Assembly: GCA_004322215.1 (NCBI GenBank)
Contig: SCSM01000026.1
Span: forward strand, 1 to 64,000
Source: Bacteroidota bacterium
GTDB taxonomy: Bacteria; Bacteroidota; Ignavibacteria; Kapaibacteriales; UBA2268
Direction: 5' to 3'
Length of the DNA stretch: 64,000 bases
Positions 55,450 through 58,141 of this stretch are shown in pieces. A program made the translations under genes and the position numbers. Numbering within the stretch: the stretch's first letter is position 1; each line of letters starts with the position of its first letter. The notes beneath the pieces are model-generated. The model was not told where the DNA came from, made no database searches, and was given only the letters and a program-made list of their open reading frames with translations.

Positions 55450-55647
55450 TATTTTCTTATGGTATCAAATTATGAAATTTATAAAAAATAAAAAACATAA
55501 TTAATACTTCTTACACATTTACATATAACTAATAACACATTAATTGCAAAATAGTTGCAAAAAAATTAAATTTTTTTAACTTTTTTTGCATCCTTTTCAA
55601 TATTTATGTGTTATTATATATAAGTTAAGTTGAACTTTTTGGTAAAA

Positions 55648-56223
55648 ATGAGACAAAATTTTTCTACATATACCGATGAAAAGCTTGTGTTTCTTCTTCG
55701 TAGCGATAACAAAGAAGAATCAGAGATTGCATTTACTGAGGTGTATAACAGGTATTCATCAAGAGTTCATGCTTACTGTTTACGTGTTCTTAATGATTAT
55801 GAACAGGCGGAAGACATTTTCCAGGAGGTTTTCATAAGGTTTTTTCAGAAGATTAAATCAAATTATCCTGAAACCAATGTATCCGGCTATTTAATTAAGA
55901 TTGCACGAAATTTATGTTTGAATTATAAAAGGGATAAAGTAAACACAATAAATATTCAGGAGAATGATATTTATTTCGAGCCGGGTAAATCTTTTGAAAA
56001 CTCGGAATTGTTAGACTTGATAACAACGGCGTTGGAATTGCTGGATTTTGAATACAAAGAAGCATTTGTAATGCGTGAATACGACGGATTATCGTACAAC
56101 GAAATAGCAGAAGTAACTAATACAACAGTAACAAATGCAAAATCGAGGGTGTTCAGGGCAAAACAAAAAATTAAAGAAATTTTACAGCCCTATTTGAAAG
56201 ATATGGCTAATAATGAAAATTGA
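55648..56223 (+). CDS. ECF-type RNA polymerase sigma factor
   Basis: 191 residues from ATG 55648; an upstream TTG (55630) is less likely. Region 2 (YSSRVHAYCLRVLNDYEQAE, DIFQEVFIRFFQK) and region 4 (EAFVMREYDGLSYNEIAE, TNAKSRVFRAKQKIKE) are clear. Such sigma factors direct core polymerase to a small envelope-linked regulon. The gene 28 bp downstream encodes a membrane protein with an anti-sigma-like N-terminus, the usual pairing. Autoregulation is likely, but no paired promoter motif was fixed. Confidence 0.93.
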   Translation: MRQNFSTYTDEKLVFLLRSDNKEESEIAFTEVYNRYSSRVHAYCLRVLNDYEQAEDIFQEVFIRFFQKIKSNYPETNVSGYLIKIARNLCLNYKRDKVNTINIQENDIYFEPGKSFENSELLDLITTALELLDFEYKEAFVMREYDGLSYNEIAEVTNTTVTNAKSRVFRAKQKIKEILQPYLKDMANNEN

Positions 56224-56251: not shown

Positions 56252-57460
56252 ATGGATTACACAAAGCTTATTCACGATTTTATGGACGGCACACTCGATG
56301 GAACGGAAGAAGAACAAATGTTCTTCCAATTCTCATCGAACGATGAATTACGTGCCGAATTAAAACAACAGATTGCCATCAGGGAAGCAATCAGAAATGA
56401 TACAAGAGCTTTCACACCGGCTGCAAGTTCGACAGTAGGTGTATTTTCAACTCTCGGCTTCAGTCCGCCTTCGACGGTTTTTGAATCCGTAATGCCTCCC
56501 AATAAAGGTGGTAAGACCGGATTCTTTACAAAATACAGGCAGGGATTAATAAGTGCAGCATTTTCAATTGCAGCTACTGCGGCAGTATTTCTATTGCTAA
56601 TGAATCCTTTCGGTAATGGAAACGTGACACAATCAAATAATGTCAATCCATCTGTAGCACAGACACAGACAATACCGGGAAATATTCCGAATGTTCAGAG
56701 CTTCAGTAATGATGAATCGAAAACTAAAATAAGATATATAACAAAAGTTAGATATGTTGATGTGCCGAGGTATGTTGACAGGTCTCCGGCTCAAAATAAT
56801 ACAGAAAATACCGGTACTTTAACATCGAATAATGAGACCGCAAATACAGATTTAACATCTGCCGATTTGGATTCACATATAAATCCCGTATCTGCACTTG
56901 CAGATAATCAAAAAGAATTTCCTGAGAATTTAAGTTATGGAGTAAAAAGCAATTACTTTAATAATCTTATAATGCCTAATGAACAACTGGGATTGTCATT
57001 TGAATTTCGTGGTTCTCAATATTGGAATTTTGATAATGTATATATAAATCCTTTCAAATATCAAGAATTTAATAATACCGCAATAGCTTTATATTATAAT
57101 ATTTCTGATAATTTTGCAGTTGGTGCGGAATATAGAAGAGAAAATTTCTACCAGAAATTTGAAAGTAATGAAAAGGATACTTTATTCCAGCAACAACCCA
57201 ACTTTAATTCATTAGGATTAAATTTGAGATATACATTACCCTTTGAATATGGCGGTATATATCCATTCTTACAAAGTAGTATAGGCGGTAATAATGCCGG
57301 TGTTATATACAGAGGTATGGTTGGTTTAATATATTCACCGTATCGGGATATTACATTTATTATAGGTGGAGAGTACAGCGGATTGAGCTATTATCATAAA
57401 AATAATTGGTTCAACACGGGCAAATTCGGCTTGAATTACGGAGTGATGGTCAATTTTTAA
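56252..57460 (+). CDS. Anti-sigma-like membrane protein fused to a C-terminal beta-barrel
   Basis: 402 residues. The N-terminal ~55 residues (IHDFMDGTLDGTEEEQMFFQ, DELRAELKQQIAIREAI) have the short helical layout of Bacteroidota anti-sigma factors. One membrane helix lies at about 99-117. A polar Asn/Thr/Ser-rich stretch (118-245) would cross the periplasm. Residues ~246-402 alternate in strand-like fashion with aromatic girdles (LGLSFEFRGSQYWNF, AVGAEYRREN, GLNYGVMVNF) and end in Phe, the usual last residue of outer-membrane barrels. If so, a single chain would join cytoplasmic sigma control to an outer-membrane barrel. It lies 28 bp after the sigma gene. The barrel call rests on pattern, not homology. 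Confidence 0.72.
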   Translation: MDYTKLIHDFMDGTLDGTEEEQMFFQFSSNDELRAELKQQIAIREAIRNDTRAFTPAASSTVGVFSTLGFSPPSTVFESVMPPNKGGKTGFFTKYRQGLISAAFSIAATAAVFLLLMNPFGNGNVTQSNNVNPSVAQTQTIPGNIPNVQSFSNDESKTKIRYITKVRYVDVPRYVDRSPAQNNTENTGTLTSNNETANTDLTSADLDSHINPVSALADNQKEFPENLSYGVKSNYFNNLIMPNEQLGLSFEFRGSQYWNFDNVYINPFKYQEFNNTAIALYYNISDNFAVGAEYRRENFYQKFESNEKDTLFQQQPNFNSLGLNLRYTLPFEYGGIYPFLQSSIGGNNAGVIYRGMVGLIYSPYRDITFIIGGEYSGLSYYHKNNWFNTGKFGLNYGVMVNF

Positions 57461-57502: not shown

Positions 57503-58141
57503 TTGAAGTACATAGTTATAATATCATTATTCATTATTACTGTTATTCTTCTCAATTCCTGCAAAGATTCTCTCGGAATTGAGAAAAATGTACTAATCAC
57601 AACAATTGATACTTCTGGTAATGACACTACAGGTAAGGATACCATACAAAAAATTGAAGCTTCAATTGATTCTCTTCATTGTAAAGAAGAATTTTTATTC
57701 AATAACTATCCTTATGAGTTTCCAATTGACGAAAAAGTAATTCTCAAGGAAGCTTATGTTGATACATCTACATATCCCGTTTTTGTATGGATTAATCTCG
57801 ATATTAAAAATCAATACGGGGATGATATATATAGTGCGCTCGGAAGACATGAATACACTCAATCAATTAGAATTAAAGTTGATTCATTGCAAGGTCCCGG
57901 GGGACCTTATAAACTTATCTACCCGCCTAACAGCGGATATTGGTCTGAACTTGGGGTAAGATATATAGATAAAAATGATAGTGCATTTTTTGACGGCTCG
58001 CTTTCAAAATTCGATATACGATTTGTATTTGATTTCAAGCATCATATAACAGCTCTAGTATTAGGAGAAATACCTAATCCAAGCAATCCGGATAATAAAA
58101 CATTTATTAATCTAAGTTTCGTAATCAAATATCCAAAATAA
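57503..58141 (+). CDS. Lipoprotein of unknown function
   Basis: 212 residues. Signal peptide with lipobox ILLNS-C near residue 20. No ATG is available; TTG at 57503 gives MKYIVIISLFIITVIL, so a TTG start is assigned. The rest has strand-like segments (VFVWINLDIKN, LSKFDIRFVFDF, TFINLSFVIKY) without a known family. Follows the anti-sigma/barrel gene by 42 bp on the same strand and may belong to the same unit. A hairpin follows directly. Confidence 0.72.
   Translation: MKYIVIISLFIITVILLNSCKDSLGIEKNVLITTIDTSGNDTTGKDTIQKIEASIDSLHCKEEFLFNNYPYEFPIDEKVILKEAYVDTSTYPVFVWINLDIKNQYGDDIYSALGRHEYTQSIRIKVDSLQGPGGPYKLIYPPNSGYWSELGVRYIDKNDSAFFDGSLSKFDIRFVFDFKHHITALVLGEIPNPSNPDNKTFINLSFVIKYPK

Follow-up and report, generated by a model that had tools for sequence, protein, structure and literature searches.

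A putative anti-sigma factor with an inner-membrane helix and an outer-membrane barrel in a Kapabacterial genome

The 402-residue protein encoded directly downstream of an ECF sigma factor gene is, with high probability, a trans-envelope anti-sigma factor that would extend from the cytoplasm to a barrel in the outer membrane and silence the adjacent sigma factor. Its gene lies in a window of 64,000 nucleotides (the whole stretch of DNA that was analysed). The host most likely belongs to a Kapabacterial branch of the Bacteroidota, far from Bacteroides; the taxonomy used places Kapaibacterium within Bacteroidota, and the closest named relatives were metagenome-assembled genomes from the environment that bear the labels Ignavibacteria(e), Bacteroidetes or Candidatus Kapaibacterium. 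The design is known from gut Bacteroides, namely from Dma1-3 of B. thetaiotaomicron, anti-sigma factors in which a tether links a helix in the inner membrane to a barrel in the outer membrane (PMC13088901); here it appears to be made of different parts and is present in nine copies in one genome. Our assignment draws on gene order, predicted domain anatomy, the modelled barrel fold, conservation and sigma/anti-sigma co-evolution, all of which were computed here.

In the mechanism that we infer, from the binding of the sigma factor, the location and the topology to the signal and the way of release, the N-terminal class I-like domain would bind and silence the ECF sigma factor of the preceding gene, helix 99-117 would pass through the inner membrane, about 127 residues of tether would bridge the periplasm, and the eight-stranded C-terminal barrel would sit in the outer membrane and anchor the chain. 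A change at the barrel, be it failed insertion, damage or contact with a ligand or with the lipoprotein of the operon, could alter the tether or make it accessible to a protease. The grip of the anti-sigma domain would then be lost, perhaps by proteolysis (M50 proteases are encoded in the genome), and the sigma factor would turn on a regulon that probably includes its own operon. The downstream lipoprotein could serve as co-receptor or as output.

Table 1 Predicted features of the locus, with positions in the window
Feature	Position	Strand	Basis
AT-rich inverted repeat TGCAAAAAA...TTTTTTGCA, ahead of the sigma gene, candidate regulatory site	55556..55590	.	sequence
ECF sigma factor gene, 191 aa from conserved ATG (ORF calling lists TTG 55630)	55648..56223	+	Pfam/NCBIfam; Kapabacterial sigma clade
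Putative dual membrane-spanning (Dma-like) anti-sigma factor, 402 aa	56252..57460	+	sequence, homology, hydropathy, AlphaFold model
Residues 1-67, class I-like anti-sigma domain without zinc ligands	56252..56452	+	model, PDB and weak Pfam matches
Residues 99-117, single predicted inner-membrane helix	56546..56602	+	hydropathy; model helix 89-116
Residues 118-244, predicted disordered periplasmic tether	56603..56983	+	pLDDT about 30; family lengths
Residues 145-150, IPNVQS, conserved tether motif	56684..56701	+	alignment, shuffled-tether comparison
Residues 165-171, KVRYVDV, second conserved tether motif	56744..56764	+	shuffled-tether comparison
Residues 245-402, predicted eight-stranded outer-membrane beta-barrel, ends in beta-signal NYGVMVNF	56984..57457	+	model, fold search, alternation, C-terminal signal
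Putative lipoprotein gene, 212 aa, LLNSC-KDSLGIEKN, third operon member	57503..58141	+	sequence

Gene order and the downstream lipoprotein

The product of the upstream gene matched Pfam Sigma70_r2 and Sigma70_r4_2 (5e-16 each) as well as the NCBIfam model sigma70-ECF (3e-27). Its translation probably starts at the ATG (MRQNF..., kept in relatives) rather than at the TTG. An ECF sigma gene was found immediately upstream in all 37 inspected loci, and a lipoprotein-like open reading frame followed downstream in 29 of them by a strict automatic scan and, on inspection by eye, in 35. Because both neighbours are conserved, the predicted operon order is sigma factor, barrel anti-sigma factor, lipoprotein. 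The lipoprotein was ruled out as NigD or DUF4943, given that it had no Pfam match at E 1 and that the genome contained no DUF4943 match. The inverted repeat ahead of the sigma gene, which lies in a block kept in an alignment of five related genomes, is a possible regulatory site of the operon. The stretch TGCATC-N-TGTTATTATA occurs a single time in the genome, and a regulon search of the genome with the conserved upstream stretch revealed no site beyond the locus itself.

The original prediction had assumed that the system would work with no separate receptor. This part has become doubtful, since a lipoprotein gene lies downstream in nearly every relative and its product may be part of the sensor. 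The strongest rival to our reading goes further and takes the lipoprotein, not the barrel, as the real receptor, which would cap or thread the barrel, with both halves signalling together with the lipoprotein. RcsF acts with outer-membrane proteins in a comparable way. The frequency of the downstream gene speaks for such a role, as does the sequence C-x-D-S-L-G that is often found at the lipidated cysteine; likewise, the product of the third gene in the Bacteroidales dma2 operon, DUF4943, begins like a lipoprotein. However, the lipoproteins diverge strongly outside the N-terminus and could equally be products of the regulon, and deletion of BT_1557 left the vesicle phenotype of the dma2 mutant unaltered (PMC13088901). 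On balance we think it unlikely, if still a serious contender, that the lipoprotein is the receptor, and we favour the barrel of the anti-sigma factor as the sensing part.

Anatomy of the 402-residue protein

The frame, its length, the 28 bases that separate it from the sigma gene, the terminal Phe and the hydrophobic segment 99-117, all named in the original prediction, were re-found. The whole protein had no confident family in Pfam or NCBIfam, and a profile of the full-length protein found no match among PDB sequences. AlphaFold, run on residues 1-402 with 12 sequences, bore out the expected helical N-terminus with helices 3-11, 17-29, 31-49 and 58-67, followed by a long helix (89-116); the polar stretch of about 125 residues appeared as disorder up to residue 244, and the strand-like C-terminus of about 155 residues as eight long strands from 248 to 401. 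Confidence was modest for the full chain (mean pLDDT 57, pTM 0.42), about 70 in pLDDT for the N-terminal domain and about 70-92 for the barrel. The membrane helix, with a 19-residue mean hydropathy of 2.34, showed no clear preference for positive residues on its inner side in a charge check. Model, fold search and hydropathy together support the proposed combination of anti-sigma-like domain, membrane helix, tether and closed transmembrane barrel in one chain.

Anti-sigma domains of class I (ASDI) consist of a three-helix bundle, a linker and a fourth helix ahead of the membrane helix (PMC7406223). The modelled N-terminus follows this plan, with moderate confidence for the first three helices and low confidence for the fourth. 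When a profile of the domain was compared with 177,635 PDB sequences, DdvA (E 0.19) and RsiW (E 0.29) ranked first, each weak alone, and single relatives gave weak Pfam matches to RseA_N (0.0019) and zf-HC2 (0.002). The N-terminal domain of the Kapabacterial family thus looks like class I (RseA/RsiW type), although without zinc ligands. Furthermore, distances between sigma factors correlated with distances between N-terminal domains at r = 0.80 (0 of 2000 permutations as high) and with distances between barrels at r = 0.44, shared descent contributing to both values. The published correlation for ECF/class I pairs is 0.82 (PMC7406223). These distances suggest that the sigma factor and the N-terminal domain co-evolve. 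A tethered sigma/anti-sigma model was built from natural in-frame neighbours, with the inter-gene stop codons read through in six relatives (L039-L041, L044, L045 and L049), and reached a pTM of 0.50, a low confidence.

The same anti-sigma domain and helix were also encountered elsewhere in the class as 155-residue barrel-less proteins beside sigma genes, indicating that this module is separable and that the barrel was either added here or lost there. At five such loci (L069, L071, L072, L073 and L075) the barrel-less protein was followed by a lipoprotein that by eye resembles a TonB C-terminal-domain protein. Related N-terminal modules with other C-termini were seen at L074 (glycogen-binding-like by eye) and L070 (undefined domain).

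Across the family, 106-183 residues separate the helix from the barrel. Since the stretch is at least 106 residues long in every relative, the tether could cross the periplasm when extended. It carries two short conserved motifs. IPNVQS lies about 30 residues past the membrane helix and contains Pro146, which was invariant in all 35 aligned members. The second motif, KVVYKYIYV-like in relatives, follows 45-65 residues past the helix and was present in 13 of 37 tethers, as compared with 0.07 in shuffled ones. Both motifs exceeded the shuffled tethers, a comparison to be read as descriptive because the regular expressions were written after the alignment had been viewed. As possible cleavage or docking sites, these motifs are compatible with a chain that is cleaved after export, leaving an ordinary outer-membrane barrel and an ordinary inner-membrane anti-sigma factor that would signal via separate contacts. 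The site-2 type of the M50 proteases and the existence of the anti-sigma/helix module as a barrel-less protein in other orders point in the same direction. Yet the frame is single and unbroken in nearly all relatives, and a chain split at rest would give the barrel no hold over the anti-sigma domain and leave the long conserved fusion without explanation; we therefore consider this arrangement improbable and retain the continuous trans-envelope chain.

Foldseek returned outer-membrane barrels as the top matches to the C-terminus, with OprF first. In VIA-align over residues 245-402, the barrel of OprF reached Z 15.6 and OmpA Z 14.2. The alternation of polar and non-polar columns across 35 relatives was strong in seven strands and weak in one, and 34 of 37 relatives ended in the pattern xxGxxxx[FYWL], expected by chance in about 2.7% each. 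This pattern matches a known outer-membrane targeting signal. The original prediction had left a soluble beta fold as the alternative to a closed barrel; structure prediction decided for an OmpA/OprF-like fold, i.e., a closed eight-stranded barrel that is non-polar outside and ends in a beta-signal. That the domain is a soluble periplasmic beta barrel has a very small probability: avidin-like folds do occur further down the fold list (Z about 10), but the rank of the outer-membrane barrels, strand faces that alternate with one side non-polar and the conserved beta-signal led us to reject a soluble domain.

Copies and relatives of the putative barrel anti-sigma gene

A chance origin of the frame can be dismissed, as full-length homologues are present in 54 of 60 related genomes, with up to 31 matches in one of them. 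The expectation that relatives would share the architecture held in the homologue search, where nearly all members were encoded by one uninterrupted frame. Within the barrel family, none of the three outcomes that the original prediction had named as refuting it was encountered. The genome of the window (a 4.2-Mb assembly) contains nine copies, eight full-length by homology and one more distant, so that 9 of its 22 genes with sigma region 4 are paired with a barrel anti-sigma protein. The ninth and most divergent copy (L164:1736-3160(-), 474 aa, C-terminus TTTIIYGFQINF) adjoins a deep-branching ECF sigma gene. Two complete sigma/barrel anti-sigma/lipoprotein systems, L004 and L005, lie on opposite strands within about 5 kb (G000:C2:69318-73572). 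At L049:3995-5144 a frameshift splits the anti-sigma gene between tether and barrel, which reflects either an assembly error or a pseudogene. Another locus, L047, is labelled Desulfobulbaceae and is nearly identical to one in an Ignavibacteriae assembly; its contig is probably mis-binned.

A further layout was observed at three ECF sigma genes of the same genome, which are followed by proteins of 460-640 aa (L161:3936-5567(-), L162:4572-5960(-) and L163:4328-6256(-)). In each of them a short N-terminus leads to a single membrane helix near residue 46-58, and the C-terminus is a sorting domain for type IX secretion (PF18962, E 3e-14 to 1e-8). The layout recurs in related genomes, and the accompanying sigma factors group as a separate clade. 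By sequence, the proteins look like anti-sigma factors with a type IX cargo at the far end, and might possibly sense directly whether secretion reaches the cell surface.

Comparison with Dma and other known systems

The four-helix plan of the N-terminus is shared with the class I anti-sigma factors RseA, RsiW and DdvA, which are devoid of an outer-membrane barrel; the zinc ligands of RsiW are missing in the Kapabacterial domain. In FecR/FecI systems with TonB-dependent receptors, an outer-membrane event likewise controls an ECF sigma factor via an inner-membrane anti-sigma protein. There, however, the receptor is a separate protein, whereas the Kapabacterial barrel is part of the anti-sigma factor. 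FecR/TonB-receptor signalling was ruled out for the present locus, which has no FecR domain and no receptor gene and is flanked by the sigma factor and lipoprotein genes. A closer parallel by description is found in P. vulgatus, where an ECF sigma factor is accompanied by a large anti-sigma factor that is predicted to reach across the periplasm to a barrel in the outer membrane. This system responds to envelope attack and is tied to the response to the toxin BcpT; disruption of the anti-sigma gene led to a protective state against antibacterial toxins that was attributed to the sigma regulon, and a similar pair of B. fragilis is cited (PMC9308784). Unlike the Kapabacterial system it belongs to the Bacteroidales, and we liken the two by their description. 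In the limited literature that was searched, we found no description of a class I-like barrel anti-sigma family with many paralogues and a lipoprotein partner.

The idea of a protein that spans both membranes and reports to a sigma factor was already known, while the architecture proposed for the window is supported and gains from a published analogue: Dma works via its cognate sigma factor, and deletion of dma2 activated das2-dependent changes (PMC13088901). For comparison we recovered Dma2-type operons by means of the adjacent DUF4943 gene, which agreed with the published operon in gene order and neighbours, and collected 26 Bacteroidales relatives. Dma proteins and the Kapabacterial family share an N-terminal anti-sigma domain, one membrane helix, a long disordered tether and a small C-terminal outer-membrane barrel. 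Dma1 and Dma2 also have an ECF sigma gene directly upstream, and the dma2 operon has a lipoprotein-like third gene. They differ in the position of the membrane helix (about residue 99 in the Kapabacterial protein vs about 50 in Dma) and in copy number (nine vs three).

Comparison of the anti-sigma domains by hhalign revealed no similarity between the two groups (probability 0.6, one column aligned), a result that homology too remote for detection could also produce. Full-length profiles scored 62% (E 7e-5, marginal) and barrels alone 11%; the Bacteroidales barrel scored higher, at 87%, against an ordinary barrel protein of the window's genome. OMP_b-brl_2 was matched by 23 of the 26 Bacteroidales proteins and by none of the Kapabacterial ones, two of which matched OMP_b-brl weakly. 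On these profile comparisons, the Kapabacterial and Bacteroidales barrels appear not to be specifically related. By descent, a Dma would be paired with a sigma factor of group ECF21. The sigma factors of both groups formed distinct, well-supported clades in the tree, yet one joint clade was not rejected by the AU test (p-AU 0.287), and the sigma trees were therefore dropped as proof of independent origin. Because the anti-sigma domain and the barrel differ and a joint sigma clade was not rejected, an independent origin of the dual-membrane architecture is likely, not proven. We regard the Kapabacterial protein as one that works like Dma and do not assign it to Dma by descent. Evenly balanced in our judgement is the wider proposal that double-membrane anti-sigma factors arose at least twice in Bacteroidota, and that the Kapabacterial version joins a class I module to an unrelated barrel in a three-part system with a lipoprotein, giving about nine parallel envelope sensors per cell and up to 31 matches in one relative.

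Dma proteins were discovered recently. A second family with the same layout and different parts would show which features are essential: the barrel, the long tether, the single helix, the paired sigma factor and probably the lipoprotein. The tether motifs and the lipoprotein offer concrete places to look for the route of the signal, and the many parallel copies in one genome would allow sensors that share one design to be compared with each other.
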